Positions 11,639 to 32,729 of a DNA stretch of 42,541 nucleotides are shown here, piece after piece. The position numbers were made by a program, and so were the translations under genes. The notes beneath the pieces are model-generated. The model was not told the origin of the DNA and did no database searches. It saw only the letters and a list, made by a program, of their open reading frames with translations. The stretch covers positions 1-42,541 of the forward strand of contig JACDNV010000006.1 of assembly GCA_017656425.1 (NCBI GenBank). The letters run 5' to 3'. The stretch is from Candidatus Neomarinimicrobiota bacterium. Its GTDB lineage: Bacteria > Fidelibacterota > UBA2242 > B5-G15. How positions within the stretch are numbered: position 1 is the first letter of the stretch; each line of letters starts with the position of its first letter.

Positions 11639-12823
11639 TTATTCCTTCATCAATTCCAAATTTTTCTCTATTAGCTGGATCCTTTGTCTTAAACATTCAT
11701 TTGATCTCAATCCGTCTGGAGGCGTATTTTTTGCATAATCAAGAAGTTTTTCAACAGTGGTAGTAGCAACATGTAGGCGTGTATCACTCGAACCATAATA
11801 AATATATATAGTTCCATCATCATCCGCTATCCATCCATTACAGAAAACTACATTTGACACATCACCTACTCTTTCTTCATCCGTCGGCGCTATCAGGTAG
11901 CCACCAGGTTTATAGATTACTTTCGTCGGATCATCAAGAGATGTAACATAAAGATAGAGAACATATCTCATACCAGCTGCTGTATTTCTTACACCATGAG
12001 GTAGGTGTAACCATCCTTCAGGAGTCTTTATCGGAGGTGGCCCCTCACCATTTTTGAGTTCTTTAATCGTATGATACTCTCTTCTTTCAATAATTACTTC
12101 TTCTTTTATAACAGGATTCTCTATATCATCTACAAATCCGAATCCTATACCACCACCTCTCCCAGCTTCTATAAAATCATCTTGAGGTCTGGTATAGAAT
12201 GCATATTTACCGTTTATAAATTCTGGGTGTAATACTGCGTTTCTTTGTTGTTTTGAAGGCGTCTTTAAATCTGGCAGTCTCTCCCAGTTTCTCAAGTCTT
12301 TCGTCCTGAGTATCCCGGCTTGTGCTTCTGCTTTTGTAGTATCCCATTCAGGAGCATCAGGATCCCTTCTCTCAGTACAGAATACCCCATATATCCACCC
12401 ATCTTCATGCTTTGTGAGTCTTATATCATAAACATTAACATCGGGCCTATCAAACTCGGGAATTATTACTGGATAGTCCCAAAATCTGAATCCATCGATC
12501 CCGCTTTCACTCTCAGCTATTGCAAAGAATGACTTTCTATCCACTCCTTCAACTCTCACCATTAGATAATATTTATCACCCAGTTTAATTGCTCCCGCAT
12601 TAAACGTAGAATTAACACCCATTCTTTCCATTAAATGCGGGTTAGTTTGATAGTTCAAATCATATTTCCAAAATGGTGGTATGTGATCTCTTGTCAATAC
12701 AGGATAAATATACCTATCGTATATACCGTTATAGAACTCGCTCTTTTTATTCTTTCGAGTAATTATCTCTTCATATTCATTAAAAATTTCTTTTAGCCTT
12801 TTATTAAACTCTTCCCTACTCAC
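11639..12823 (-). CDS. GH130 4-O-beta-mannosyl-glucose phosphorylase
   Basis: Cytoplasmic phosphorylase of 394 residues, family GH130 subfamily 1-like. It converts beta-1,4-mannosyl-glucose plus phosphate to alpha-mannose-1-phosphate plus glucose. Visible family blocks are [35 protein letters not shown] and VNVYDIRLT, whose Asp (about 133) matches the catalytic acid. The blocks [38 protein letters not shown] and [14 protein letters not shown] follow. The frame allows ATG at 12838, but that ATG abuts a purine-rich site. The GTG at 12823 has GGAGGA seven bases upstream and overlaps the epimerase stop as GTGA, so I take it. Coupling to the 2-epimerase fits the known mannobiose pathway (mannobiose to mannosyl-glucose, then phosphorolysis). 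Confidence 0.93.
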
Positions 12824-14037
12824 TTTGGATTCCTCCATTCCCTCAAAATTTTATCAACTCTTAATATAATATTCACACAAGCCCTAACATTGTGATAAGG
12901 TCCTTTCCACTCTTCCACTTTAAGCTTCTTGAGATTTGGCTTTCCATCCTTTGAAACTTCATAAAACCACTCTCCATAATTCCAATCAACTAAAAAACTT
13001 TCAATGAAATCCCATGCAAGCAAAGCCTTCTCAAGATACCTATTATCTCCTGTCAACTGATACGCATTTATAAGGCCTACAACTGCCTCAGCCTGTGTCC
13101 ACCACTCAACATCATCTTCTAACTCTCCCGTTTCCCTCTGTTCTCTATAAATTGAATTCCTCTCATTGAATGCACTATTTAAAGTGGTTTCTGCAAGTTT
13201 TAGTGAAATTTTCCTCAGGTTTTCATACACTTCAGAGCCCAGCACTCCCATAGCTTCCGTCAATAACCAGCTGCATTCAATATCGTGACCAAATGATATA
13301 TTATTGGATTTTAAATCCCACTTCGAATCAAAAAATAACCCAAGATGTCCTGAGGGCAAAATAATATATCTTTGAAGTAATTCTAAAATATTAATTAGTC
13401 GACTTTTAACACTCTTCGCCCTGGTAACCCTATATAGATTAGTATACGCCTCCATCATATGTAGATGTGAATTCATAGACTTTTCTGCTTCCATATCCCT
13501 GTCACTTATACGCATCTCAGCAGGTTTTGACCAGTCACGATTAAAGGTTTCAAAATAACCATTATCTGCCACATCAAGGAATTTCTCCTCAATTAATGAA
13601 TAAAAATTATTTATCAGTTCCAGTAGTTTATCATTACCTTTGATCTCATAGTACTCACTTAATGCATAAATCAGAAAAGCATGCCCATATATTTTCTTTG
13701 CTTCGACATTAGGTCTACCATACTTATCTAAAATCCAGTATGCACCACCATATTCTCTATCAATAAAATTTCCCACTAAATAATTATAAGCGGTATCGGC
13801 CAGATTTTGATATTTGTCTTCTTTATACATTTTATATAAATAAGAAAATGCCCATAAAATTCTCGTATATAAAATCAAACTTATTCTTGCATCCCGTATA
13901 GGATTGCCAAAATTATCTACAGCACCGTAAAATCTATTATTATCTTTATCAAAACATTTTTCAATCCAGAAAGGTAAAATATTTTCAAATAATACCTTTT
14001 CAGCTCCCTCTTTTAGTCGACTCATCTGGTTATTCAT
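12820..14037 (-). CDS. AGE-family disaccharide 2-epimerase (cellobiose/mannobiose 2-epimerase)
   Basis: (alpha/alpha)6-barrel epimerase of 405 residues without a signal peptide, hence cytoplasmic. It epimerises the reducing-end sugar of beta-1,4-linked disaccharides at C2. Family motifs are [57 protein letters not shown] (catalytic His/Glu), [10 protein letters not shown], and [10 protein letters not shown] near the end (catalytic His). The frame could start at 14082, but the ATG at 14037 overlaps the GH5 stop by 8 bases (ATGAATAA), with GGGAGGG 12 bases upstream. It is placed between a mannanase and GH130 mannosylglucose phosphorylase, so mannobiose to mannosyl-glucose is the likely reaction. 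Confidence 0.92.
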
Positions 14038-15865
14038 ACTCAATTTCAACCCTCCCGATCTGGCAATCTGTCCTTGCCTCAATACATAAAAATGAAAAGC
14101 TATCGTTTAAACTATTGGATATAATATATGGCACACAATATTTGTAATCGAGTTTACCTGCAAAAAAATCAATTATATCAAAGTTACATTTATTGTAATT
14201 TTTTCCATCCTTCGATAAACTCAAAATGACAGGAATTTTTATAGGTTTTTCTGTAAAGGCAATAATCTTGAAACTCTTAATATTACCAGGAAAACCATAT
14301 ACAATCTCTTCTCCCTTTTCGAGTCTAAACCGATGGAAATCCTCTTTATATCTCCTCGCATCATCACTTACAATTTTTACCTTCGATGACTTAAAAAACA
14401 TCTTCCCATAACTATCGCAATTATCAATTAGAAATTTTGACTTTACACAAATGGGACCTACAGTGTTAGAATATTCCGATTCACCCCATTGATTAATTGC
14501 TTTTATCCTATAGTAGTAAGATTTTCCTACCTCAACAGTTTCATCTGTAAACTGTGGGTAATAAGGTATTGAGGCATCATCAATATTAAAAGCCACAACC
14601 TCCCAGTTATCTTTATTTTCCTCCCTTCTTTCTATCACATAATATTTTGCTCCGGCACTACCCTGCCAGTTTATAAACGCGGGATGATCAAAATGCAATA
14701 GTTTTGGTTTATTAGGTCGACTTTTAACACCCTCATCCAAACCATTTATAGAGATCATATATTTTGCAAAAGTATTTAATATACCAATTTCATTATATAA
14801 ATTGCCCGAGTGGAAACCTGGCCAGTGATAAGCTTTATACAAGCCTCCTCCGCCTGGTTCACTATGCCAGTAAAATCCACCGTCCCTATTATGGAATCTC
14901 AAACTCCATAACAACGAACCAGAAACGTTTTTATTATCCGACAAATAATCCATTAATAATTTTATTGCTGAGGTACTAACAAATCCAAATTCACCAATAT
15001 AATATGGTTTTCTCCCATTTATCAATTTCACATTATTTCTAATGTGATCTATCATATCAATTGGATTTGGTTCATAATGATGTGTTGACAAAATGTCGAT
15101 ATACGGACTGTTTATTACATCATCTTTTATAAAAAATGTCTGCCTGCCATCATTCACAAGATGGTTAGAATCTATAGACTTTACAAAACTTGCCATTTCC
15201 TCAATCCACTCAATTGGTGCATTCCAGATTTCATTTGCCAGTTCCCACGCCAAAATCGCTTTATCCTCTTTGTAGATCGTTCCAGTAATTGTATTTTTTC
15301 TATTTAAAATAAATCCTATAGTCCTTTTAAAATCTGCTTTTATTTCAGGATCAGTCCAGAATTCATCCCCTCTCTTACCTCTAAACCTCGTATAATCTTC
15401 CTTCCCACCCATCCATTTCCAGTTATCAACAAAAGGAATGATCAATCTTACTCCAACCTCGTTGGCTATTGCCAGGACAGTGTCAAGAACCAGAAATGCT
15501 TCTTCATTAAAAATCCCCGGACCAACAACATGCTTAGGAGTATTTTTTAAATCTACATTTCTTCTTACTGTAATTGCATAGGTACGCGCTACATTCCCTC
15601 CCATCAATCTAATTGTCGATAAAGCATCCTTAATCTCATAAAAATTTGGCAATCTCCAGGCATTGGGATTATCAATCTGCATATTGTCTTCAATCATTAG
15701 TAAATTTGGAATATTAAATGAGACAAAACGAAACTCTCTTTTACCATCATAGAGCTTACCATCTTTTACATAAATGAAATCATCAAATACACTTTCCTCA
15801 GCATATAGCTTATAATAAAATAAAATTAAAGATAACGATAGAATCACATATTTTTTAAATAACAT
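14030..15865 (-). CDS. Secreted GH5-family endo-beta-mannanase-like enzyme with Fn3 and C-terminal beta-sandwich
   Basis: Secreted glycoside hydrolase, 611 residues. It has a signal peptide (to about residue 22), a GH5/clan-A barrel (about 30-380), a fibronectin-III-like domain (about 390-480) and a final beta-sandwich (about 485-611) of unknown role. The acid/base is Glu212 in AWELANEIWN and the nucleophile is Glu292 in YYIGEFGF. LSTHHYEPNP, a WxxRFHNRDGGFYWHSE substrate strand and the general layout resemble eukaryote-like GH5_7 mannanases. First gene of the GH5-epimerase-GH130 operon. It has no evident Shine-Dalgarno site. The promoter and a palindromic operator lie immediately upstream. 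Confidence 0.85.
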   Translation of the reverse strand: MLFKKYVILSLSLILFYYKLYAEESVFDDFIYVKDGKLYDGKREFRFVSFNIPNLLMIEDNMQIDNPNAWRLPNFYEIKDALSTIRLMGGNVARTYAITVRRNVDLKNTPKHVVGPGIFNEEAFLVLDTVLAIANEVGVRLIIPFVDNWKWMGGKEDYTRFRGKRGDEFWTDPEIKADFKRTIGFILNRKNTITGTIYKEDKAILAWELANEIWNAPIEWIEEMASFVKSIDSNHLVNDGRQTFFIKDDVINSPYIDILSTHHYEPNPIDMIDHIRNNVKLINGRKPYYIGEFGFVSTSAIKLLMDYLSDNKNVSGSLLWSLRFHNRDGGFYWHSEPGGGGLYKAYHWPGFHSGNLYNEIGILNTFAKYMISINGLDEGVKSRPNKPKLLHFDHPAFINWQGSAGAKYYVIERREENKDNWEVVAFNIDDASIPYYPQFTDETVEVGKSYYYRIKAINQWGESEYSNTVGPICVKSKFLIDNCDSYGKMFFKSSKVKIVSDDARRYKEDFHRFRLEKGEEIVYGFPGNIKSFKIIAFTEKPIKIPVILSLSKDGKNYNKCNFDIIDFFAGKLDYKYCVPYIISNSLNDSFSFLCIEARTDCQIGRVEIEYE

Positions 15866-18467: not shown

Positions 18468-19651
18468 ATGAAAATCCCATTAAAACTTCTTATTTCAATT
18501 TTTTTATATCAGTTTTTTCTTTTTCCAATGCACAGTTTATAGATGATTTCGAAGACACTTTAAAAATCGATCCCACAGCTCTTAATGGCTGGACCTTTTT
18601 TTCAGGTGATGGAAATGTTTCGATGAATTTTGTTAAAAAAGATGGATATGCATCTATTTACGTAGACGCCACAAAGGATAAAATGGGTATCTGGTGGGCA
18701 CTTATTAGAAGGTGCATATCTAATAATATGGATTTAAGTTTGATACAAAAGAATGAATACGAATTCAGAGTCGAAGCAAGAGTAAGAGTAAGCTCAGCTC
18801 CAAAACGAATAAATCTCCACTTGAATACTCAAAGAACAACTGATTTTCACACTCATCTGATGGAATATGATATACCTGACACTACCAACTGGCACGTAAT
18901 AAGTATGACAACAAAAAATTTCGATGCCAGACCGGGCGATCATGTTTTCGGACAATTAGCACTGATGGATTGGGGATTAGAAAAATACAGAGTGGATATA
19001 GACTATTATAAGGTAGATATTGTAAGAATTGATACAATAGTTCCAGATAAAGGTAATCCATTACCCTATCATCCCAAAATTCCAGATCTCAAAACATTTG
19101 AATATAAAATACCAGTTTCAAGAGATGGATTAATAAATTTAACTTACCCGGAATTAAAACTTTACGATTGGAAACTGTTCTATAGAAATAAAGAAGTACC
19201 CATTTTATCAGTTTCAAACGATCAATATGCAACCCTTGAATGGGATTTAAACAGATTTAAAGGTAAAAAAGTTAAGGGTTTTGGAGTTATTGAATTAACA
19301 ACTCATAGTGTTATTAAACTTAAAAGAGATTTAAAAGACTTTGGTATAATCAGAGTATCTGAAGTATATAATAATTATTGTCAACATGAAGATTCATTAA
19401 GTCTTGAAAATTTTTGTGGGAACAAAAACTTATATGATTTAATAAATTCACAGATGATTATTGATGTTGAAGTAAAAAAGAAAGGGAAAACTCTGATTGC
19501 AATTAATAATGCTGTGTTAACAAGAATGATAAATGGAATAACTAAAGGTATAGCTTTAAAACCACTTGGAGCAATAATATATTCGTTCTATCCGCATGAG
19601 TATAAAAATGGAAGATATCAACCCTATTTATATCTCAATCTTGAGGAATAA
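18468..19651 (+). CDS. Secreted glycan-binding-like protein, signal peptide frameshifted at a T7 tract
   Basis: Exported protein of unknown function, about 394 residues if the frame is repaired. The ATG at 18468 has AGAGGA eight bases upstream and starts a signal peptide (MKIPLKLLISIF). Its frame then stops (TAG near 18540). Adding one T to the T7 run at 18499-18505 joins it exactly to the downstream frame, giving ISVFSFSNAQ and then FIDDFEDTLKIDP, a textbook signal-peptide end and mature start. As read, the longest ATG frame starts only at 18623, inside the first domain. Residues about 25-190 look like a jelly-roll sugar-binding module (FEDTL...GWTFFSGDGN...). The rest is another beta-rich domain. 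It lies among GH genes. Either a real slippage/phase-variable site or an assembly error. Confidence 0.6.
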
Positions 19652-19721: not shown

Positions 19722-21419
19722 ATGAGGAAATTAATTCAATACCTATTCTTATCATTCCTATTAATACTAACATCGTGTGCAAAAAGACCTGAGCCCGCTA
19801 AAAATATCCTATTGTCAACATCCTTTAAAAATTTTACCATGGAGGATTTTTATAATTATTTTCCTGAAAAATCTTTCAAAAACCTCAAAAAACACCAAAA
19901 GAAGGATTACATAATAGAATTTTGCAAAAGAGAACTTTTTTATAAAGATGCACTCGATAAAAATTATGACAGAATACCAGAAATAAAAAATGACTTGGAA
20001 ATACGCAGAAAAGAAATTCTTTTCAATTTATACTATCAAAAAGTGGTAATTGATACTATAATTAATGATGAGAAATTAAAAGACCTGTATGAAAAAATGA
20101 AAAAGGAAATCAATATGAGACAAATATTCATAAAGATTGGGGGAAAGAATGGAAGATCAAAAAAAGAAGCTTATAATCTCGCAATGAGTATATACAACAA
20201 GCTTAAAAACGATGCTGACTTTCAAAAGCTGGCAAAACAATACTCCGATGATAAAGCTTCTGCTGCCTATGGCGGAATATTACCACCCAAAAAGTGGGTA
20301 CGCCTACCAAAAAGCTATCGAGATATCATATACAACATGAAAGAGGGAGAAATTACAGAACCCATTTTCTATAATAATGGTTACTATATTTTTCAAGTCA
20401 TAAAAGTAGAATTCAAAAAACTTATTCCATTTGAAGAATATAAAGAAACATTAAAACAAATTTATATTATGGACAATCAAAGCTATGTTCGAAATATTCG
20501 CAGTAAAATGATTAATAATATTATTAATACACACAAAATAAAATTGAATAAAAATAATATCAAAGTTATTGCAAACTACTATAGGACAAAATTAAGAGAG
20601 CTAAAAAATCAAAAGATAACGCCTGAAAAGAAGGTTGAAATCCTAAAAACTTACCCAAAAAACATAGTTTTGGCCGAATGGGATAGTGGTAAATACAGGC
20701 TTAAAGATTTACTCAGTGATTACGAATACAAAACCGAAGCATTACTTTATAATGTTCAAATCGAATCCAACTTAGCATACCTACTCAGGGACATAATAAT
20801 TCGAAATATAGTCGAGAAGGAAGCTGTAAAATTCGGGCTGGATACTACAAAAACCTTTCTAAAAACATTCGAGAGCTATAGTAAAAACGTAATACTAAAA
20901 AAATATAAGAAGGAAGAGATTGAAAATAAGATAACAATAAACGACAATGAATTACTGGAATATTATAATAAACACAAGGATTCTTTATACATTAACCCAA
21001 CAATGGTTCAAACATGGTCAATAGTGGTTCCATCCAGAGATGATGCAAAAAGAATCATTAATATGCTAAGAAATGGGAGTGATTTTGATACACTTTTTAA
21101 TAACTATTCGAAAAGATTTCAAAAAATCAAAGGATATCTTGGTTATATCAACAAAAACCAATACAGTGTTATAGGACAAATAGCGACAAGAATGAAACCA
21201 AACACCATTTACCCGGAACCGGTCTCCTACAGAGGAGATTGGGCTGTTATCAAAGTTGGCAATATAATTCCTGAAGGTCCTTCCCCCTTTGAAGAAGTTA
21301 AGGGAAAAGTTAAAATTGATTTAATTAGATGGAAGACAAAAAATACTGAAAATCAGCTCTATATAAAGCTAAAAAATAAATATAGTGCTAAAATAAACTG
21401 GGCTTTAGCTGGCTTATAA
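19722..21419 (+). CDS. Parvulin-type peptidyl-prolyl isomerase lipoprotein (PrsA/SurA-like)
   Basis: Lipoprotein of 565 residues. The signal has a lipobox (LILTSC, Cys19), then an N-terminal helical chaperone segment (about 30-125). A PpiC/rotamase domain (about 133-235) contains MRQIFIKIGG...ADFQKLAKQYSDD...GGILPP, a glycine pair and GEITEPIFYNNGYYIFQV. A helical linker follows, then a second, more divergent rotamase-like domain (about 425-535: WSIVVPSRDDA...GYLGYINKNQ...PVSYRGDWAVIKV). Such proteins help secreted or outer-membrane proteins fold in the periplasm. A secretion chaperone fits the many exported enzymes here. GGAGGT precedes the ATG. It follows the secreted protein by 70 bases. 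Confidence 0.85.
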   Translation: MRKLIQYLFLSFLLILTSCAKRPEPAKNILLSTSFKNFTMEDFYNYFPEKSFKNLKKHQKKDYIIEFCKRELFYKDALDKNYDRIPEIKNDLEIRRKEILFNLYYQKVVIDTIINDEKLKDLYEKMKKEINMRQIFIKIGGKNGRSKKEAYNLAMSIYNKLKNDADFQKLAKQYSDDKASAAYGGILPPKKWVRLPKSYRDIIYNMKEGEITEPIFYNNGYYIFQVIKVEFKKLIPFEEYKETLKQIYIMDNQSYVRNIRSKMINNIINTHKIKLNKNNIKVIANYYRTKLRELKNQKITPEKKVEILKTYPKNIVLAEWDSGKYRLKDLLSDYEYKTEALLYNVQIESNLAYLLRDIIIRNIVEKEAVKFGLDTTKTFLKTFESYSKNVILKKYKKEEIENKITINDNELLEYYNKHKDSLYINPTMVQTWSIVVPSRDDAKRIINMLRNGSDFDTLFNNYSKRFQKIKGYLGYINKNQYSVIGQIATRMKPNTIYPEPVSYRGDWAVIKVGNIIPEGPSPFEEVKGKVKIDLIRWKTKNTENQLYIKLKNKYSAKINWALAGL

Positions 21420-21454: not shown

Positions 21455-24178
21455 TTATTTCAACAAAATCATCTTTCTTGTAATTCTCTTATTCGCAGTT
21501 ATCAATTGATAAAAATAGATCCCGGAGGGCATATTATCCATATCAATTCGAACAGAATAATATCCAGGTTTCACTTTACAATTTAGCACTTCCTTAACTT
21601 TTCGACCAACCAGATCGTATACTATCAGTTTGACATTTTCTTCTTCTGGTAAAGTAAAACGTATTACAGTATAAGCATTAAAAGGGTTAGGATAGTTTTG
21701 TAGTAATTCATAGTCCAGCGCAACATATTCTTCTTGATTCTCTATAGACTGCTCATACTTCTTATAAATATTAAAAATTTCCTCATCAGACAGTGCTCTG
21801 CTATATATTCTAATCTCATCTACCCTTCCTTTAAAGAAAGCATCATTATAGGGAGAATTTATCCCTATACCTAGGTAATCATCATTAATAGATAATAAAC
21901 CGCTATAGATATATATTGTATCCAAAAGTCCATCTATAAAATTCCTAATGTTATCTCCATCATAAACAAAGCCAAAGTGGTGCCATGATCCTGTCATTTC
22001 ATCTTTATTAATAGTGTATGGAAATATCCTCCACTCCTGATATCTATCTGAATAAAACACATTGTAAATTCTTGAATTATTTTCTCTTAGTTCAAAGAAA
22101 CCGTAATTTTTACCTTTTTGAATTAAATTCTGGTTTCCAGACGCATCTTCCAGCATGACCCACGCACATATTGTTATTTGATCAGAAATATCCAGACTGA
22201 AATCATCCTCAATTAAGCAATAACTACTACCGTTGAAACTCAAAGCATTCCCTTCTACACCTTCTACAATTTCTGTATTGTATAACTTACCGGAATTTCC
22301 TGCACTGGCATCTTTTACAATTGTACTTGTATCAGCAAGCTCATCAAATGTAAAATAAGCAACAAGATCCTCTTCCAGAGTCGTTCTTAAACCGATAATA
22401 TAAAAATAATCAAAGAGTGTCCACCCCCAGAATGCAACTATTGATAGCGTATTCTTTCCTTTTTTTACAGGAATCATTCCAGCATCTACTATTGACCATT
22501 CCTGCCCTGTCTTCGGGAAAAAAATCTCTCCAATTCTATCACCATTTACATATAGAAAATTGTATTTTTCAGTATCATAAGGATTCGAATACCCTATTTT
22601 TAGTGGGAAATTTCCTTCCAATAAAGAGTAAAATGTAATACATATACTATCTTCTGGAGGCTCATGGTCCATAAAAACATACCCACTCCCTGAATATCCT
22701 TGTTGATCAGTTTTTACCACTGCATCTCCAGATAACTGACCGGACTCCGCTTCTATCTTTACACCTCCAACACCTACATTTATATTTACTTTTTGACTTT
22801 CTCTATAATTTCCAACAGAATCATAAGCAACTGCAAAAACAGTGTAAAATCCAGATGGTACTTTTTCCAACAGAAATATGTAGATAGAATCACTATCATC
22901 CTCACTATATACAGAATCCACTCCAACTAAACTATCGTTTACATAAAATTCAACAAATGCAAGATTTCCATCTTCATCCCACGCTTTTGCCTTTATTTCG
23001 ATATCACTACTGTCTTTATATACATATCCTTCTTTTGGATTTAATAAATTAATTTTAGGCCATTGTCCCCATTTACCTTTAATATCCACTTCATCCCTAT
23101 AATTATTCCAGATATCAAACATATTGTATCGCATAAGTTCTCTTGAAGAAGTTTGCAAATCAGTCCATGACCAAGCAAGTGCACCAGCATAGCCCAGTTT
23201 ATACAATCTTCTAAATAGAGTGTCGGGTTCGCTGTATCTTGATTCTCCTGTACGATATGCCTTAGTATGAAACTCCGCAATCACCAATGGCTTATCAATC
23301 TGCCAGTAGGAAAATGGTCTATAAAAAGGTGAATCAGGATAATAGGGATAATCATAGTAATGAAGACAGTAAAAATCCATGTATCCCAAACTATCACCAC
23401 CAGCCCCCATTAACTCACTATCTTTATAATAATTTTTACTTACATTCTTATAGTCGCTTGTTTGTAGAACTACATCTGTTAATGCAAATAGCGCCCACGT
23501 CCCATTTGTAACTTTTGCATCAGGATCAGTTCGATGAATTGCACCTGCACAGAGATTTACAAACTTTTGTATATCAGCCATTGGAACATGCTCCGTAAAA
23601 TCCCATCCAAACTCATTACTCATGCCTTCTGCTTCATTAAATATCTCCCAAGCAATAACTGCAGGATGATCTTTTAGTGAATCTACCATTGGAACCAAAC
23701 AATTTTCTATATAGGAGCTCACATACTCATCATTGGTTAATAATTTCTTATTCCTTTCTTTTATATAATCAGGTAAGTTTTCTCTCAACATATCAAAAGA
23801 CCATAAACATAAAATAATTCCCACTTCTCGTCTCCAGGCTATATCAAGTATTTTTCTTAAATCTGATATTGCACTATCTCCGGGACCAATTACATATCCA
23901 TTCTCATCGAACTCAGGTGTTTCCACACCATTTGTATGCAACCATAATCTGACTGCATTTCCTCTATGATCGTGAATATCAAGAAACATATCAGCAAAGG
24001 CTTTAAAATCAGTCGGACTTGGTCCGATATCACGAGCAAAGTTTATCCATGCAACATTTACACCATTTAAGAATAAATCTTGATCATTAAATCCAATCCT
24101 GTTTAATTGCCCATATATATTTACTGTATGAATTATTAATATAGAAATGATAATAAACCTCAATTCCTTACACAACAT
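21455..24178 (-). CDS. Multidomain GH5-like endo-mannanase with CBM35-like, LamG and T9SS sorting domains
   Basis: Large secreted enzyme, 907 residues. After the signal peptide (ends about VNIYG) comes a GH5/clan-A barrel (about 30-380) with acid/base in AWEIFNEAEG (Glu185 counted from the upstream GTG) and nucleophile in LVIAEFHTK (Glu305). An Ig-like domain follows (about 385-475, PKINLLNPKEGYVYKDSSDIE). Next are a CBM6/35-like module (about 480-610, VKIEAESGQLSGDAVV), a LamG/concanavalin-like domain (about 615-810, LVAYFTFDEL) and a type IX sorting domain (about 825-907, NYPNPFNAYTVIRF...SGIYFYQL). I use the ATG at 24178, with GAGGTG six bases upstream, over the GTG at 24187. It is probably cell-surface attached or released, attacking polymeric mannan. 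It is separated from the TonB-receptor operon by a terminator. Confidence 0.9.
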   Translation of the reverse strand: MLCKELRFIIISILIIHTVNIYGQLNRIGFNDQDLFLNGVNVAWINFARDIGPSPTDFKAFADMFLDIHDHRGNAVRLWLHTNGVETPEFDENGYVIGPGDSAISDLRKILDIAWRREVGIILCLWSFDMLRENLPDYIKERNKKLLTNDEYVSSYIENCLVPMVDSLKDHPAVIAWEIFNEAEGMSNEFGWDFTEHVPMADIQKFVNLCAGAIHRTDPDAKVTNGTWALFALTDVVLQTSDYKNVSKNYYKDSELMGAGGDSLGYMDFYCLHYYDYPYYPDSPFYRPFSYWQIDKPLVIAEFHTKAYRTGESRYSEPDTLFRRLYKLGYAGALAWSWTDLQTSSRELMRYNMFDIWNNYRDEVDIKGKWGQWPKINLLNPKEGYVYKDSSDIEIKAKAWDEDGNLAFVEFYVNDSLVGVDSVYSEDDSDSIYIFLLEKVPSGFYTVFAVAYDSVGNYRESQKVNINVGVGGVKIEAESGQLSGDAVVKTDQQGYSGSGYVFMDHEPPEDSICITFYSLLEGNFPLKIGYSNPYDTEKYNFLYVNGDRIGEIFFPKTGQEWSIVDAGMIPVKKGKNTLSIVAFWGWTLFDYFYIIGLRTTLEEDLVAYFTFDELADTSTIVKDASAGNSGKLYNTEIVEGVEGNALSFNGSSYCLIEDDFSLDISDQITICAWVMLEDASGNQNLIQKGKNYGFFELRENNSRIYNVFYSDRYQEWRIFPYTINKDEMTGSWHHFGFVYDGDNIRNFIDGLLDTIYIYSGLLSINDDYLGIGINSPYNDAFFKGRVDEIRIYSRALSDEEIFNIYKKYEQSIENQEEYVALDYELLQNYPNPFNAYTVIRFTLPEEENVKLIVYDLVGRKVKEVLNCKVKPGYYSVRIDMDNMPSGIYFYQLITANKRITRKMILLK

Positions 24179-24198
24179 AGTTACCACCTCTTACCTCA

Positions 24199-24240
24199 AC
24201 AAATAAAAAAGCCAGCAGGTGATTTCTCACCTGCTGGCTT
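24199..24240 (-). terminator. Strong intrinsic terminator
   Basis: AAGCCAGCAGGTGA (24209-24222) and its exact complement TCACCTGCTGGCTT (24227-24240) form a 14-bp stem with a 4-base loop. On the minus strand it is followed by TTTTTTATTTG (24210-24200). It ends the lacI/TonB-receptor/beta-helix transcript just before the mannanase gene. Confidence 0.92.
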
Positions 24241-24264: not shown

Positions 24265-26823
24265 TTACTTCAATACAACCATCTTTCTATTCAGCTTAAC
24301 TTTTCCAGCTTCCAGCTGATAAAAGTAGATCCCAGAGGGTAAATTACCTGCATCAAAATTAATAGCATGATATCCAGCATTCATATGCCGGTTTAACATA
24401 GTAGCTACTCTCTGTCCAAGCATGTTATAAATATTCAGTTTAACATGCTGTGGTTTTTCGATATAGAATCCAATAGTTGTTGTTGGATTAAATGGATTAG
24501 GATAGTTCTGGTCAAGTCTATACTGTTTTGCAAGATTATTGTCTTCTTTAATACCAACTTCAATTTCCGTCTTACTTATGATCTGGATAAGGTCTATCTT
24601 TGTGGAACTACCGGTAATTGCAATTTCATGGCTTCCAGCATCGGCAGAGAATGCGCCAGTCGTTAAATCTGTCCCAGTTGTATCATACTTAAATGTAACA
24701 TTTTCAATTACAGTCCCGTCAACTGATATACTACCAGTCGCATCAGCTCCACTGGAATTACAATAGAATACACGAACTTTATATTCTCCCGCATTTTCCA
24801 GATTTACTGTAAATGAGACAGTGCCATTTGTACCTAAATCAACAGATTTGAATGAGGATGGTACCCACGCACCTGAACCTCCTGGGGTAGCATTGTAACT
24901 AACAGCATCTTTTGCATCTAAGTGAACTATTAAATTTTCTGTGCCTGGTTCGTAAAATTCCACCCACTGAAATGAAATTGGATTCCAAGAATACTGTAAT
25001 TTTAGCGTATTCTGTCCAGAAACCAAAGCAATATATTCACTTCCATCAAAACAATGTAGTTCAGCTGTCGCATAAAAAGCTTCATAAAATTCATCCGTAC
25101 TTTTTCCGGTCCAGAATGTCTGTGGATCATCCGAGCCTGTCCATACAACAAGTTGCCCCCATTTACGAGCGGCATCAACAATATTGTGTCCATTTAAAAT
25201 AAAATCAAAGCCTATATTTACTCCATCAGCCCTAGCTTTCATTTTCATATCTATAGGACCCTCATAATCCGAATCGAAAGTCCACTCTATTGAAGAACCA
25301 GGTTCTAATGTATACCATGCTTCACCTTCAAAAGTAGCAACCTCGGCTCCATCACTAACATTACCATCTTCTGCTTCTATTGTGGCAATTGGTTGTTCTA
25401 TAATTTTATTACCAGGTAGCGCTTCTATCCATGCCACATATGCATCTTTATTTGCTTCCCAATCAGCTTTTTTATCAGGGAACCAGTTCAAATCACCAAG
25501 TGGTAATCCATCTGTTCCCTTTGTTAATAATTCGGCTGGCTGAGTGTAATGAAAGTCTTCAGGTAATGGCCATAGTATATCAGTATGTATTACATCACCA
25601 GCCTCATCAGTAGGTATCCCCCATGCCCATTCAGTCGATGGAGAGATTCCCTCTCTTAAACCCTCAATACATGCTATCATTGAATCAACTACCCAGTCGT
25701 CAACATCGGCATCAAAATTGGGTTTCTCAGCAAGCCATAATGTATCAAGCACCCTCCTCTGTATATATTCTTCACCAAAGTACCATTTTCTTGTGAAATT
25801 AGACAGAAATGGTTGTGGCTTATATGGTCCATCAGCTACCCCCTCTTTTGTATAGTATTCTGCAAATTTTGGATCTCTCCAAGCTGCTACAGGACCAAAA
25901 AGAATTCTCCTACCTTCTTCTGTACCATATCTGCTTGGTAGATCACCAACAGTGAAGAACCCAACCGCATCTACCCAGTCATCCCTCTCAGGATCATAAT
26001 TGGTCTCACTTGTATACTCAGTCTTGGTCTGACCATGCCAGAATGGGTTTATCAAAAGTAAATTTGTAAAATAGGCTTCTTTCCACCAGGCTCCTGCATT
26101 TAACGAACGTCCCATGTTGACTATAGTATTATGGTTAAATCTCACGTAATTGCCAGCACCACCCTCAAGCTGAAACGGAGTGAACATTATATTAAGATAG
26201 GTACAGTTTTCCACAATCACTGTATCCTGGTCTGTTGTTATCCTGATTGTCTGACCAAGCCATTGCTGATCCGGAAACATATCCCCAAAATGCCTGAACT
26301 TACAATCTTCGTAGATTATATCATTGTTTTTCCCAGCGTACAGAATAATTCCAAATTTCTCTCTTTCAAATATTACGTTTTTCATATAGAACTTACAATT
26401 CTCTGCACTTACATCAATTGGGAAATAATAAGTCTGCACGCCATTTTCATCACAACCCAAGATTGCAACATTCATCAGAGTAAGAGAATTACTTACATTC
26501 ATTAATTGACCAGCAATTGAACCATCTTCTCTTGAAACCATTTGAATTATCGCAGGATGTAAATCGCTAGTTGGCTCTTCACCTACTATCACCAATGGGA
26601 AATCAATATTCATAGTCTCTGTAATCCAGTAGTATCCACCTGCCTGCAATTTGTAAATCTTTGCATCTCCGTATTTCTCAATAGCCTTTCTTAAAGTGTC
26701 CACGAAAATTTGCGTCCCATCCGTCCAAGGTACAAGTAGTGTGTCAGCAGCATTAGCCTGTTCTGGAATCATTGTTAAAAACATACAGACTAACAGGGTT
26801 AAAATTAAGTAACCTCTCCTCAT
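24265..26823 (-). CDS. Secreted beta-helix/CBM protein with T9SS sorting domain, partner of the TonB receptor
   Basis: Secreted protein of 852 residues, function not recognised. A signal peptide ends near NAADT. Residues about 40-280 read as a right-handed parallel beta-helix of the pectate-lyase-like type, with repeated strands such as CKFYMKNVIFEREKFGIILY and DIIYEDCKFRHFGD. No catalytic Ca-Asp/Lys-Arg set can be assigned. The middle (about 280-475) is a poorly defined linker region. Two CBM-like sandwiches follow (about 475-630, IEAEDGNVSDGAEV; about 640-765, SVDLGTNGTVSFTVNL), then the type IX sorting tail (NYPNPFNPTTTIGF...RKMVVLK). AGGAGG precedes the ATG, 21 bases after the receptor gene. 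It is in the slot where SusD lies in Bacteroidetes loci, so it may bind glycan at the cell surface. Confidence 0.75.
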   Translation of the reverse strand: MRRGYLILTLLVCMFLTMIPEQANAADTLLVPWTDGTQIFVDTLRKAIEKYGDAKIYKLQAGGYYWITETMNIDFPLVIVGEEPTSDLHPAIIQMVSREDGSIAGQLMNVSNSLTLMNVAILGCDENGVQTYYFPIDVSAENCKFYMKNVIFEREKFGIILYAGKNNDIIYEDCKFRHFGDMFPDQQWLGQTIRITTDQDTVIVENCTYLNIMFTPFQLEGGAGNYVRFNHNTIVNMGRSLNAGAWWKEAYFTNLLLINPFWHGQTKTEYTSETNYDPERDDWVDAVGFFTVGDLPSRYGTEEGRRILFGPVAAWRDPKFAEYYTKEGVADGPYKPQPFLSNFTRKWYFGEEYIQRRVLDTLWLAEKPNFDADVDDWVVDSMIACIEGLREGISPSTEWAWGIPTDEAGDVIHTDILWPLPEDFHYTQPAELLTKGTDGLPLGDLNWFPDKKADWEANKDAYVAWIEALPGNKIIEQPIATIEAEDGNVSDGAEVATFEGEAWYTLEPGSSIEWTFDSDYEGPIDMKMKARADGVNIGFDFILNGHNIVDAARKWGQLVVWTGSDDPQTFWTGKSTDEFYEAFYATAELHCFDGSEYIALVSGQNTLKLQYSWNPISFQWVEFYEPGTENLIVHLDAKDAVSYNATPGGSGAWVPSSFKSVDLGTNGTVSFTVNLENAGEYKVRVFYCNSSGADATGSISVDGTVIENVTFKYDTTGTDLTTGAFSADAGSHEIAITGSSTKIDLIQIISKTEIEVGIKEDNNLAKQYRLDQNYPNPFNPTTTIGFYIEKPQHVKLNIYNMLGQRVATMLNRHMNAGYHAINFDAGNLPSGIYFYQLEAGKVKLNRKMVVLK

Positions 26824-26844
26824 AATTTACCTCCTTTTTATTTG

Positions 26845-29800
26845 TTAAAATTTATACCTTAGCCCAACATCCATAGAAAAACCATAATATTCAATGTAAG
26901 ATGGTCTTGTGTAGTCAGCACCTAAATAAGTTTCATCGGGTTTTTCATTTAAATTGTTAAAATTAGCGTATAGTTCAATCCTATTATTTAGCTTTTGCCT
27001 AAAAGTCAAATCCCATCTATAGTAAGGTCCTGTCCTACTATCAAATTCAGGGTATTCGGCAATATAGGTTACTTTGTCAGTCTGATATAGAAATGATAAT
27101 CTTACAGAAAATCCTTTGTAATCATACCCTAATGTTAAATTTGCAATATATTTCGGCTGATCAGTGATCCTCGATGTCCTGGTAGTATCATATAATGTGT
27201 ACTCTTTATGTGGCGGTGGAGGAAAAGCAACAACTTTTGACCTTACTTTCCATAACTCCTTTTTTATACTTGAAGTAATATAAGTGAAATTTACATTCAG
27301 CACGAGTCCACTAAACATCCCTCTCAAATACCAGAAGTTAGTCTGCCATTCAAATTCAAACCCTCTATAATATCCAGGATATTTATTATTAAGATATGTA
27401 TCAATCTGTGGTCCCTGTTTTAGCCAGACCTCCGGTATGTTTAAACCTGAAAGGTCTACATCACGAGTCTGGAAATATTTTGAATAATACCTGAAAGATG
27501 TAAATAAGATTAGATCATATATTTCCTTATAAAACCCTGAAATTGATAAATATCCCAGATAGTTATTATAAAACGAAAAAGCTAAATCATAATTAATTGC
27601 ATGCTGTGGCTTTAATTTTGAATTGTTGGCTACACCCCATGTCCCAAATACATTTATAAAGGTCCTTGGAACATATTGAATATAGTCCGGTCTTGATATA
27701 GTTTCAGTCCTGGACAGTCTTACCCTCATCCAATCATTAGGTTTGAGATTCATTAGTATCATTGGTAGAGTATATATATTATCCCTTTTAATTGTTAATG
27801 TATCATAATCATATAATGTCACAGCCTTTCCTTCTTTTATTGCTTCAAGAATTTCCTCAAGAGTAGGGGGCTGATTATTTATAGTTACTTCTCTATATTT
27901 TCTACCATTGTACTTACTAAAATCCCTTTCCCATCTTACCCCAGCTATAACAGATATTTTCTTACCTATATTAAATTCTCCCATTGCATATGCTGCCTGA
28001 TGTACTTCAAAACCATCGTAATCACGACCGAAATAATCTACCATTGGAACCCTATCGATATCTATCGTATCATTTACATCAGCATTGAATAAAGCTTCCA
28101 ACAGGTAATCAGCCATATCTTCCTTAATTATATAACCCTGAGGATACCTTCCTCCCAGAAAATCATCCCTTTTATACTTATTATCTATAACTAGATAAAG
28201 TGGAAATCCCCCCTCATATTCTGGAGTATCCCAAAATGTACTATCAAACACTGCAGGATATTTTTCCATTAAATAAGATACCATTGTCTGTAAATCGCCA
28301 TTAAAACCACCGTATTGCTCACCCCATCTTCCAACTCTGTTTTCATCATTTAATCTATCAACATGTCTATATTTACCACCAAACTTAATATAACCATGTA
28401 GCAGATTTCCAAAATTATAAGGAACTTTAATATTCAACTGAGAACTCCAGATTTTTTCATATCTATCTATACTATTTTTGTATGCTTCTGAAAACCAGGT
28501 TTTTGCTGAATCAGGTGTTAAAAGATCCGGTATATCAAAGGGATCGGTTTTCGGCCCAACCTTGGTGGCATCAAGATTATTTCTCTCACGTATAAATGTT
28601 ACAATACTATTCCCTGAATATGGCATATCAGCTTCCGAACTGGAACGAGAAATACTAAAATCATAACTTAAAAATCCAAAATTCTGCTCCATTCCCATTG
28701 CACCTGTAAAAAGACTCGTTGTACCCTGAGATTTTTCTAAGGAAAAATTTCTTCTATTATCCTGAGTATTCACACCACTTATATTATCAAGCCTGTTCAC
28801 CGCATCCCATGACAATACATTATAAAAAGCATTGGCAGTTATTTTTCCATATGAGATTCTATAATCAGACAACAAGCTCAAACCTCTTCTCTGACGATAA
28901 ACATTTTCATCCCTGAGGGTTATGTTACTTGGGACTTTCCCAATTTTAGTAACATTCACAGATTCCCCAATATCCGGATCAAACTCTTTCTCTTCATAAT
29001 CCCTACGAATATAACCTGCAGAAAATTTATCAGCGCTCCTATCATAATTATCAATATGCCATGTTCCAATTACCCCCAGCCTTTTATTGAAAAATCTATT
29101 ACTGATACTACCAGTGAATTGATAATTCCCGTAATAATTTCTATTTTTACTATAACCTCCTTGAAAAGCCATATTCATATTAAATCTATCTGGGGCTTCT
29201 TTTAACTTTAAATTCACAGTACCACCGAATACATCAGCATCCATATCTGGAGTCACCACTTTTTTCAGTTCAATACCATCAAGAATATTTGAGGATATTA
29301 GAGACAAATCCACACTTCTATCATCACCACCTGTTGCCGGCAATCTAACGTCATTCACTGTAATAGCATTGAATTTTGGAGATAGCCCTCTAATAGCAAC
29401 TTTTGTCGCTTCTCCACCATAGCGTTCAATTGCAACTCCAGGTAATCTACCAATGGATTCTGCAGCATTTACATCTGGTAACTCTTCAATCCTATCTTTC
29501 GAAACTACGTTAACTATTTCATTAGAAGTAAATTGCTGGTTAATTGCAGACAACTGACCCTCCACCTGAGCAGTAACAACAATCTCCTCCCCCATAACAC
29601 CGCGATAATTAAGCTCAGCCCTTACTGTGGCCGTCTCACCCGGTTTTACCGTAACATCAATTTCTTTCTCTTCATAACCTATATACGATATTAATAATGT
29701 ATAATCGCCAGCAGGAACATTTAAAATGCTAAATCGTCCATCTTTATCAGTGGCGGCACCAATAAATGTTCCTTTTAATAAGACATTAGCATATGCCAGA

Positions 29801-29922
29801 GGTTCCTTCGTTGAACTATCGTACACATATCCAGATATATTCCCAGTTGCTTGACCAAGTAATCTATTTACAATGAATAATAAAATAAAAATATAAATAG
29901 ATCCACTAATGATTCTTGTCAT
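26845..29922 (-). CDS. TonB-dependent outer-membrane receptor with CarboxypepD_reg-like N-terminus
   Basis: Outer-membrane importer of 1025 residues. It has a signal peptide (to about residue 24) and a carboxypeptidase-regulatory-like beta-sandwich (about 28-108, GNISGYVYDSSTKEPLAYANV). The plug domain (about 125-245) contains IGRLPGVAIERYGGEATKVAIRGL and VTPDMDADVFGGTVNLKLKE. A 22-strand barrel ends in the aromatic GLRYKF. The plug wording matches the Proteobacterial/Caulobacter-type TonB receptors rather than SusC, which agrees with the lack of SusD. The likely cargo is the oligosaccharides made by the surrounding mannanases. GGAGG precedes the ATG by about 4 bases. A consensus promoter and paired CGAAAATA half-sites lie upstream. 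Confidence 0.92.
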   Translation of the reverse strand: MTRIISGSIYIFILLFIVNRLLGQATGNISGYVYDSSTKEPLAYANVLLKGTFIGAATDKDGRFSILNVPAGDYTLLISYIGYEEKEIDVTVKPGETATVRAELNYRGVMGEEIVVTAQVEGQLSAINQQFTSNEIVNVVSKDRIEELPDVNAAESIGRLPGVAIERYGGEATKVAIRGLSPKFNAITVNDVRLPATGGDDRSVDLSLISSNILDGIELKKVVTPDMDADVFGGTVNLKLKEAPDRFNMNMAFQGGYSKNRNYYGNYQFTGSISNRFFNKRLGVIGTWHIDNYDRSADKFSAGYIRRDYEEKEFDPDIGESVNVTKIGKVPSNITLRDENVYRQRRGLSLLSDYRISYGKITANAFYNVLSWDAVNRLDNISGVNTQDNRRNFSLEKSQGTTSLFTGAMGMEQNFGFLSYDFSISRSSSEADMPYSGNSIVTFIRERNNLDATKVGPKTDPFDIPDLLTPDSAKTWFSEAYKNSIDRYEKIWSSQLNIKVPYNFGNLLHGYIKFGGKYRHVDRLNDENRVGRWGEQYGGFNGDLQTMVSYLMEKYPAVFDSTFWDTPEYEGGFPLYLVIDNKYKRDDFLGGRYPQGYIIKEDMADYLLEALFNADVNDTIDIDRVPMVDYFGRDYDGFEVHQAAYAMGEFNIGKKISVIAGVRWERDFSKYNGRKYREVTINNQPPTLEEILEAIKEGKAVTLYDYDTLTIKRDNIYTLPMILMNLKPNDWMRVRLSRTETISRPDYIQYVPRTFINVFGTWGVANNSKLKPQHAINYDLAFSFYNNYLGYLSISGFYKEIYDLILFTSFRYYSKYFQTRDVDLSGLNIPEVWLKQGPQIDTYLNNKYPGYYRGFEFEWQTNFWYLRGMFSGLVLNVNFTYITSSIKKELWKVRSKVVAFPPPPHKEYTLYDTTRTSRITDQPKYIANLTLGYDYKGFSVRLSFLYQTDKVTYIAEYPEFDSRTGPYYRWDLTFRQKLNNRIELYANFNNLNEKPDETYLGADYTRPSYIEYYGFSMDVGLRYKF

Positions 29923-30013: not shown

Positions 30014-30042
30014 AATATATAAAAACGGTAACATTATGTCAA
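30014..30042 (-). promoter_or_regulatory. Promoter of the TonB-receptor operon
   Basis: Minus strand TTGACA (30042-30037), a spacer of exactly 17 bases, TATATT (30019-30014), about 92 bases before the receptor ATG. It has the same two hexamers and spacing as the lacI promoter. Confidence 0.6.
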
Positions 30043-30110: not shown

Positions 30111-31097
30111 TTATGCGGATTGCCGCTCAATTAATTTTACGGGAACTATTGTAGTAACTCCTCTGTAGGATTTACCACTTATTACATTCAATAATTGTCT
30201 AACAGCGATCGAGCCCATCTCTTCTTTATATACCCTCACTGTAGTCAAAGGTGGATTTGAGAATTTCGCCATATCAATATCATCAAAACCCATGACACTT
30301 ACATCATCTGGTATTTTCAATCCCTTATCCTTGATTGCTTTGTACCCGTAAATAGCGTTAAGGTCATTTGCGTAGAATATAGCAGTTGGTGGATTCTCAT
30401 TCTCCAATAAACTAATCGTATGTTCATACCCTCTTTCCAATCCACCTGTTTTTACTAAATTTTCGTCAAACTCTATTCCATAAAAATCAAGAGCTTTCTT
30501 GTATCCAATATATCTCTGATTAAAACTGAGCCTTTCAAGCTGTCCTGAAACAAAGGCTATTCTTTTATGCCCTTTATTTATAAGATACCGAGTAGCAATA
30601 AAACCTCCGTGCTCATTGTCTATTAATACCTGCGTCTCTTTATCCAAGTAAACTTTAGGGTCTACAAATACCGCTGGTATAATTGAGTTTCTAATGATAT
30701 TTGTAAACAGCTCATTAAAAACACCAACCACAATAATCCCATCAACTTGATTATCCCTTATCATTTTAGGCAATTTATTTGTTTCTGGATCAGGAATTAA
30801 TTGCAATATAAGATTGTAATTATTTATAACTATTTCTCCCTCAATTCCTTCAAGAACTCTGGAATAAAACGGATTATTTGATAATGGCCTGCCCTCCCTG
30901 CAGAAAATTACTCCTATATTATTAGTCTTCTCAGCTTCTAGCTTCCTCAATCTGTGATGATCATATTTTAATTCTTTTGCTATTTTAATTATTTTCTCCT
31001 TGGTCTCCCGACCTATATCCCTTCGGTCATTTAATGCCTTCGAAACTGTCGATATAGAAACGTTAGCTAATTTTGCTATATCCTTTATTGTTACCAT
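30111..31097 (-). CDS. LacI-family transcriptional regulator
   Basis: Sugar-responsive DNA-binding regulator of 328 residues. The N-terminal LacI helix-turn-helix is VTIKDIAKLANVSISTVSKAL, followed by the hinge helix region. The rest (about 58-328) is the periplasmic-binding-protein-like effector domain, with NNPFYSRVLEGIEGE, DGIIVVGVF, NEHGGFIATRYLINKGHKRIAFVSG and SVMGFDDIDMAKFSNPPLTTV. The frame is open to 31136, but I start at the ATG at 31097 because AAGGAT lies seven bases upstream and the HTH then begins at residue 2, as is usual. It is first of the cluster reading into the TonB receptor, so probably the local regulator of the mannan genes. Its effector is not readable. Confidence 0.92.
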   Translation of the reverse strand: MVTIKDIAKLANVSISTVSKALNDRRDIGRETKEKIIKIAKELKYDHHRLRKLEAEKTNNIGVIFCREGRPLSNNPFYSRVLEGIEGEIVINNYNLILQLIPDPETNKLPKMIRDNQVDGIIVVGVFNELFTNIIRNSIIPAVFVDPKVYLDKETQVLIDNEHGGFIATRYLINKGHKRIAFVSGQLERLSFNQRYIGYKKALDFYGIEFDENLVKTGGLERGYEHTISLLENENPPTAIFYANDLNAIYGYKAIKDKGLKIPDDVSVMGFDDIDMAKFSNPPLTTVRVYKEEMGSIAVRQLLNVISGKSYRGVTTIVPVKLIERQSA

Positions 31098-31124
31098 ATC
31101 AGCATCCTTCATATTTCTTAACTT

Positions 31125-31171
31125 AACGAAAAGCAACGAAAAAATATAAATTGATTAAATTACTTTGTCAA
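31125..31171 (-). promoter_or_regulatory. lacI promoter with tandem CGAAAA repeat at the start site
   Basis: Minus strand TTGACA (31171-31166), 17-base spacer, TATATT (31148-31143). Immediately downstream the plus strand shows AACGAAAA twice (31125-31132 and 31135-31142), one helical turn apart. This position suits autorepression. Confidence 0.55.
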
Positions 31172-31373: not shown

Positions 31374-32729
31374 ATGTTACCACTAAATTTTCGAAAATTT
31401 ATCGTACCTATTATAATAACTCCAATTTTATTCCCATTCTGCAGTGAAAAAAATCTTTCTACTCAACTTTTAGAATCTCTAAATAGTAACATAATAAAAA
31501 TATGGTATCCATTGGCAATAGACACTGCCTATGGTGGATTTTTATCCAATTTTTCATTCGATTGGAAACCAACGAAAATGCAGAACAAAATGGTCGTAAC
31601 TCAAACGAGACATTTATGGACACTTGCAAATGCAGCAATATTCCTGAACAATAACAAGTTATTGGAACATGCTATCCATGGAGCAAAATTTATAACAACT
31701 AAAATGTGGGATAATAAGTATGGAGGCTTCTTTGATCTTGTTGACAGGACAGGGATTCCTCTATATGCTGAAACTTCTCCTCCAAAGACTGCATATGGAA
31801 ACTCTTTTGCAATATATGGCTTTACTGCATTATATAAAGTAACTAAAAATCAGACCTATCTTGACTGGGCAATAAAGACATTCCGATGGTTGGACAAACA
31901 TGCTTATGATAATGTTTATGGAGGCTATTTTCAAGCCCTGACTCGCAAGGGAAAACCTATTCCTCAAAATGTAGTTTCTTCAGAATTGAAAGATAAACTT
32001 AAAATCTGGAAAGACTATAACTCATCAATTCACCTGCTCGAATCCTTTTCCTCATTGTATGCTGTTTGGAAAGATTCTCTACTTCGCAAAAAACTAGAAG
32101 AAATGTTTTATATCGTTAGGGACACCATTGTAGATAAAAGAGGTTTTTTGTTATTACATTTTGCAAGAGATTGGACTCATATATCATTGAAAAGTCAACC
32201 CGTTCAAATATTCAGGAAAAATATCTATGTAGACCATGTTTCCTTTGGCCACGATGTCGAAACAGCATATTTACTCTTAGAGGCAGAGAAAACCCTATAT
32301 GGTAAATTTTCAGAAAAGACCCTGAAAATTTCAAAAAAACTTGTTGACCATGCAATAAAATATGGTTGGGATAAACAAAAAGGTGGATTTTATGATGCTG
32401 CCTATTACTTTAATACAGAGCCAGAAGTTGTTAACAAAGCAAAAATCTGGTGGACTCAAGCAGAAGGTCTAAATTCTCTACTTTTATTCTACAAACTTTA
32501 TCCCAATAATAAGAGTTACTACGAACTTTTTAAAAAACAGTGGGATTATATCGACAACTATTTAATTGATCAAAAATACGGAGGCTGGTATGCTGAAGGA
32601 CTGGATACTGACTCTCCCCAGGTAAGTAAGCCAAAGGCATGGACATGGAAAGGCAATTACCATAACGTTAGAGCACTAATATGCTGTATAAAATACCTTG
32701 AAAATAATCATGAATTATTAAAAAGATAG
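31374..32729 (+). CDS. Exported AGE-family (N-acylglucosamine 2-epimerase/cellobiose epimerase-like) protein
   Basis: Second AGE-family (alpha/alpha)6 barrel of the window, 451 residues. It shares with the 12.8-14.0 kb epimerase the segments YGGFFDLVDRTG, SSIHLLESFSSLY, VSFGHDVETAYLLLEAE, WWTQAEGLNSLL and WKGNYHNVRAL, so the catalytic His/Glu positions are kept. TQTRHLWTLANAA carries the family Arg. Unlike the other copy it begins with a hydrophobic leader (FIVPIIITPILFPFC) ending in Cys23. The lipobox is poor (LFPFC), so either a lipoprotein or a signal-peptide protein of the periplasm. Activity on released disaccharides before import is an inference. GH9 follows 31 bases later. Confidence 0.83.
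   Translation: MLPLNFRKFIVPIIITPILFPFCSEKNLSTQLLESLNSNIIKIWYPLAIDTAYGGFLSNFSFDWKPTKMQNKMVVTQTRHLWTLANAAIFLNNNKLLEHAIHGAKFITTKMWDNKYGGFFDLVDRTGIPLYAETSPPKTAYGNSFAIYGFTALYKVTKNQTYLDWAIKTFRWLDKHAYDNVYGGYFQALTRKGKPIPQNVVSSELKDKLKIWKDYNSSIHLLESFSSLYAVWKDSLLRKKLEEMFYIVRDTIVDKRGFLLLHFARDWTHISLKSQPVQIFRKNIYVDHVSFGHDVETAYLLLEAEKTLYGKFSEKTLKISKKLVDHAIKYGWDKQKGGFYDAAYYFNTEPEVVNKAKIWWTQAEGLNSLLLFYKLYPNNKSYYELFKKQWDYIDNYLIDQKYGGWYAEGLDTDSPQVSKPKAWTWKGNYHNVRALICCIKYLENNHELLKR

Follow-up and report, generated by a model that had tools for sequence, protein, structure and literature searches.

A TIGR01782-type TonB-dependent receptor and a T9SS-tailed beta-helix protein form a conserved pair in the wider Bacteroidota group

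SusCD is often regarded as the default route of glycan import in the Bacteroidota group. In a Candidatus Neomarinimicrobiota genome (GTDB phylum Fidelibacterota; contig JACDNV010000006.1), a TonB-dependent receptor gene is followed by a gene for a secreted beta-helix protein in the position where SusD might be expected. A sequence-only reading had suggested that this protein may stand in for SusD in capturing glycans at the surface, or may be an uncharacterised lyase-like enzyme. What, then, is the relationship between the two proteins, and what does the second one do? We analysed the locus in its surrounding 42,541-nucleotide stretch (the window) and in related genomes.

The receptor had been called a non-SusC type. 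Profile searches agreed: it scored 328.1 bits against TIGR01782 (cut-off 310) over residues 112-1025, that is, full length, but only 66 bits against the SusC/RagA model TIGR04056 (cut-off 368). Its N-terminal CarbopepD_reg_2 domain is nevertheless SusC-like. All 42 receptors tested matched TIGR01782. The features of the receptor gene and its upstream region are as follows.

26845-29922, minus strand: TonB-dependent receptor, 1025 aa, of the TIGR01782 (TonB-Xanth-Caul) type with an N-terminal CarbopepD_reg_2 domain (open reading frame and profile search).
29575-29838, minus strand: CarbopepD_reg_2 domain of the receptor, residues 29-116 (1.1e-24).
29221-29523, minus strand: TonB plug domain of the receptor, residues 134-234 (6.5e-14).
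30014-30042, minus strand: promoter-like site 5' of the receptor, TTGACA-17-TATATT, 11 of 12 positions; suggestive only, such matches being equally common in shuffled DNA.
30111-31136, minus strand: LacI-family gene directly upstream of the receptor (profile search), likely the local regulator.

The partner gene begins 21 bases after the receptor stop codon, as had been described, and the predicted perfect terminator was found 24 bases past the partner stop codon. AlphaFold2 modelled the full-length partner with a pLDDT of 88.4 and a pTM of 0.80 as a beta-helix, two sandwich modules and a tail, the architecture proposed from the letters; the core alone gave a confident beta-helix. The type IX secretion (T9SS) tail scored 41.9 bits against TIGR04183 (cut-off 23). 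The CBM35 match was marginal (residues 666-737, 28.9 bits; Pfam gathering cut-off 28), and a match to the Beta_helix profile stayed below threshold. The N terminus is an ordinary signal peptide with no lipobox. Neither the window partner nor 17 relatives matched the SusD families PF07980 and PF14322.

24265-26823, minus strand: secreted partner, 852 aa, ATG start, 21 bases 3' of the receptor stop (open reading frame, profiles, model).
25426-26748, minus strand: right-handed beta-helix core with C-terminal cap, residues 26-466, common to the whole family (model pLDDT 93.0, pTM 0.93).
25477-25572, minus strand: signature motif WPxPxDxSY...GxPLGDLNWFP, residues 418-449 (G443 in 87/87 relatives, W447 in 86/87, Y426 in 86/87).
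24964-25425, minus strand: first beta-sandwich, about residues 467-620, of no named family and only in the 850-aa subtype (AlphaFold2 model).
24589-24906, minus strand: second beta-sandwich, CBM35-like, about residues 640-745 (CBM35 profile, model, CBM6/CBM35-type fold matches).
24274-24504, minus strand: type IX secretion sorting tail, residues 774-850 (profile match).
24209-24240, minus strand: intrinsic terminator closing the two-gene unit, with a perfect 14-bp stem, a 4-base loop and a T run (sequence scan).

The sandwich modules were present in one subtype only; the pair does not depend on them.

We then asked how strictly receptor and partner occur together. The host genome encodes four full-length receptors, and behind each, in the same orientation, lies a gene for a homologous beta-helix protein that ends in a T9SS tail. 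Among 61 related genomes searched, 11 (the host included) carried the partner, and at all 16 partner loci outside the host a receptor lay directly upstream. The reverse held as well: a partner stood behind 24 of 24 testable TIGR01782 receptors of the subfamily in these genomes (268-430 bits, counting two with split matches and leaving out two at contig ends). Three higher-scoring TIGR01782 receptors (462-535 bits) had no partner; a phytase gene came next at two of them and an unrelated gene at the third. The two TIGR01782 receptors with the highest scores found in the phylum precede phytase genes (L131:3634-4755 and L132:4302-5390), which suggests a phytate-linked pair there.

A pattern scan of GTDB genomes, for which a 7-sequence alignment was used, the full-family alignment being too diverse, then found 273 relatives. 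The best 80 loci came from Neomarinimicrobiota, Ignavibacteria, Balneolaceae, Rhodothermia, Calditrichota and KSB1, with a few from Bacteroidales, Prolixibacteraceae and Saprospiraceae. Three of them started at a contig edge, leaving 77 testable, and at 69 of these the partner was behind a receptor: directly adjacent at 68, and at one separated by an insertion sequence. At the latter locus (L129:3258-4529, from a Bacteroidales genome) a transposase gene sits between the two genes. The sequence-only reading had staked its proposal on conservation of the pair across FCB genomes, and the pair was very strongly conserved. At the other eight loci, all of one subtype, the partner had no adjacent receptor. 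A profile-based search, whose 49 loci overlap the earlier sets in part (the L129 locus and genome G064 among them), found 44 paired; one of the other five lacked upstream DNA, one was the insertion-split locus, and three further partners had no adjacent receptor. The partner can thus occur apart from a receptor, a point against a dedicated partnership; the pairing is established as near-obligate. One locus (L235:1-3194, contig C7 of genome G251) has a 1115-residue open frame with two tandem beta-helix cores behind a single receptor.

Adjacency by itself could reflect only the inheritance of an operon, with two genes of one polysaccharide-utilization locus hitch-hiking neutrally. A mirror-tree comparison of the 69 pairs gave a correlation of r = 0.935 between receptor and partner distances, with a maximum of 0.11 in 500 permutations. 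Joint inheritance alone can produce such a correlation, and the value may partly reflect it. The linkage, however, was kept over several phyla at 20-30% identity while other neighbours varied, and we regard neutral hitch-hiking as very improbable. The four host partners were only 21-25% identical to each other, yet each receptor and its own partner pointed to the same foreign relatives. These observations also bear on a second alternative, in which the partner shares the receptor's regulation but makes no contact with it, acting as an adhesin or glycan binder at the surface. T9SS cargo is often anchored apart from any given porin, orphan copies exist, and the 850-aa subtype has added CBM35-like modules, all of which would suit an adhesin; equal numbers of the two genes, their strict adjacency and the parallel divergence of paralogous pairs instead suggest specific recognition, and we consider the adhesin reading quite unlikely.

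The beta-helix fold raises the question of whether the partner is an enzyme (a lyase, hydrolase or esterase) that makes the oligosaccharides imported by the receptor. The fold is common among lyases and hydrolases, and a structure search returned PL6 entries as the top matches, at a moderate TM of 0.54 on the query, along with PL9, GH87 and pectin methylesterases. The core profile had one clear match in the PDB, residues 436-696 of BcAlyPL6 (7dmk; 4.9e-8). This segment is the C-terminal domain of the alginate lyase and not the domain with the active site. The significant match was confined to it, whereas the Lys/Arg active site is carried by the catalytic N-terminal beta-helix (PMC8618178, PMC11381880). 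We therefore dropped the lyase as the leading idea, nor did the analysis identify the active site of any known lyase. The role of the PL6 C-terminal domain in substrate positioning is described as unsettled (PMC8618178, PMC11381880), and a review attributes weak lyase activity to the homologous domain of BcAlyPL6 (PMC8618178), a point in favour of an enzyme. Relative to this domain, which is both the clear profile match and the best fold match, the partner is a stand-alone, T9SS-tailed and receptor-paired protein with an extra C-terminal cap carrying PLGDLNWFP. The Bacteroidota beta-helix domains DUF4957 and DUF5123 were matched weakly by a few family members (L020 scored 21.4 bits against DUF4957, below the gathering score of 30.8); the window partner matched neither at E up to 1.

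Conservation across 87 relatives was also informative. Conserved positions were chiefly structural Asn, Thr and Gly, forming the Asn ladder and turns, together with the WPxPxDxSY...GxPLGDLNWFP motif, a distribution that speaks against an enzyme. E153, H231, R305 and D444 were almost invariant; they could be catalytic and keep an enzymatic role possible.

Genes around the locus suggest a likely cargo. The window contains the following genes, together with GH5, GH3 and GH9 enzymes and an esterase.

11639-12838, minus strand: GH130 beta-1,4-mannooligosaccharide phosphorylase, mannan context (profile search).
12820-14082, minus strand: AGE/cellobiose 2-epimerase family protein, mannan context (profile search).
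31374-32729, plus strand: second AGE/cellobiose 2-epimerase family protein (profile search).
21455-24187, minus strand: secreted protein 3' of the terminator with CBM35, a LamG-like domain and a T9SS tail; a probable glycoside hydrolase, given a weak GH2 TIM-barrel match.

Because the GH130 phosphorylase and two AGE-type epimerases occur with these other enzymes, the cluster points to the use of beta-mannan or glucomannan, and oligosaccharides of these are the likely cargo of the window copy. Two open reading frames of the glycan cluster, 18623-19651 and 14030-15865, matched no Pfam family at E up to 0.001; the second of them resembles a GH5-type mannanase.

Neighbours differed between subtypes. 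The open reading frames adjoining 25 loci of the 850-residue subtype included 12 AGE epimerases, 9 GH5, 6 GH130, 3 GH26 and several alpha-galactosidases, which reads as a mannan set. Another subtype adjoined a SurA-like PPIase (19 of the 62 open reading frames scanned) with GH10, a glucuronyl esterase and GH43, which reads as a xylan set, and other copies adjoined an alpha-1,3-glucanase-like protein (L013) or GH28 (L049). Since one core accompanies mannan, xylan and other contexts, it would serve several glycans, as SusCD does, and this fits a binding partner better than an enzyme of fixed chemistry. Clear enzymes already adjoin the same core in both mannan and xylan contexts, and a lyase requires uronic acid, which the expected mannan does not have. 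Despite the nearly invariant polar residues and the fold matches, we consider an enzymatic partner unlikely.

In the subtype with the SurA-like gene, this parvulin (PPIase) lies directly 3' of the pair (L011:2367-4127, L036:6475-8274, L037:6269-8020, L042:6286-8037), and one occurs near the window pair on the opposite strand (19722-21419). It may act as a chaperone on either the receptor or the partner.

All partners with a complete C terminus had T9SS tails (that of L129 taken from Pfam), and none had a lipobox. SprA was found in 25 of 26 genomes, with an SprA_N match of 4.8e-34 in the host. By its sorting domain and the machinery encoded in these genomes, the partner qualifies as T9SS type A cargo, and we infer export by this route.

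A second, highly conserved beta-helix family of about 440 residues (57-78% identity) was observed in this phylum directly 3' of TonB receptors of another group (L144:3576-4901, L146:3330-4760, L147:1503-2810, L148:5195-6532, L141:3567-5135). Its members are apparent lipoproteins in four genomes and carry a T9SS tail instead in the fifth. At least one has a weak Pfam beta-helix match, and three members scanned had no Pfam family at cut-off except the T9SS tail. Homology between the two families was undetectable (hhalign probability 0.2). Since the second family occurs with either anchor, lipoprotein and T9SS anchors appear to be exchangeable, and the pattern supports the view that both routes may serve to bring a partner next to a TonB receptor on the cell surface.

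The pair resembles SusC/SusD (RagA/RagB) in several respects: a TonB receptor with a CarbopepD_reg domain, a surface partner encoded by the next gene, location in glycan-degradation loci and many paralogous pairs per genome. It differs in that the receptor here is of the TIGR01782 and not the TIGR04056 type, and the partner is a T9SS-tailed beta-helix, whereas SusD is a TPR-fold lipoprotein. Profile searches found no SusD in the window, in keeping with the sequence-only reading, but this is true of the window only: a different contig of the host genome (C19) encodes one SusD, placed behind a SusC-like receptor of its own. Among 898 open reading frames of 99 loci and the window, a local SusD profile found one SusD (at L103). 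PF07980 SusD was present in 17 of 29 pair-bearing genomes and absent from 12. The pair is therefore not a simple SusD replacement, as many genomes that bear it, the host included, also have canonical SusCD. The earlier proposal stands in part: a dedicated partnership is well supported and glycan capture is the best explanation of it, but the phrase "in the place of SusD" calls for qualification.

Taken together, the evidence leads us to favour, as probable, a dedicated surface partner exported by T9SS that captures oligosaccharides for its receptor, a SusCD-like pair built from other parts. The receptor, of the carbohydrate-type TIGR01782 subfamily, would carry out TonB-dependent import. The partner's signal peptide would take it across the inner membrane and type IX secretion across the outer one, and its tail would hold it at the surface. 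Oligosaccharides would bind along the beta-helix, and in the 850-aa subtype on the CBM35-like module as well, and would pass to the cognate receptor, presumably through physical contact and perhaps some lid motion. A bolder version is tentative: that the pair is a second class of lidded TonB transporter, in which the T9SS-delivered beta-helix caps a TIGR01782 receptor, opens and closes over oligosaccharides, and provides the main glycan uptake in Ignavibacteriales and related lineages. The carbohydrate-type receptors of Xanthomonas and Caulobacter belong to the same NCBIfam subfamily, and its proteobacterial members have, to our knowledge, neither this beta-helix partner nor T9SS. As far as we know they function without a SusD-like lid, so a lid is perhaps unneeded here too, which counts against the capturing partner that we favour.

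The pair is probably a second, largely unrecognised route of plant-sugar capture in the wider Bacteroidota group. Should the partner bind glycans, searches that target SusC and SusD would have missed many loci for polysaccharide use outside Bacteroidales. Among the open-access papers searched, none brought TonB-dependent receptor, beta-helix, T9SS and SusD together; an earlier description may exist.

The distribution shows a real, widespread and multi-copy receptor-partner system. Of the 116 Ignavibacteriales genomes sampled, 49 carried the family, at up to 11 copies per genome; of 149 Bacteroidales genomes, 5 did. Each order name is that of the centre genome of its set. Melioribacter roseus P3M-2 encodes nine full-length receptors, each paired with one of nine partners; its receptor scores drop from 810 to 197 bits at the tenth best. 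Nine pairs thus stand against the one SusD found in this genome, for which the genome paper reports one SusCDE operon (PMC3534657). As M. roseus is cultivated, the function of the pair is directly testable. One of its nine receptors (L204, 2723019-2727212) is interrupted by about 1.3 kb, while the partner frame behind it is still open.
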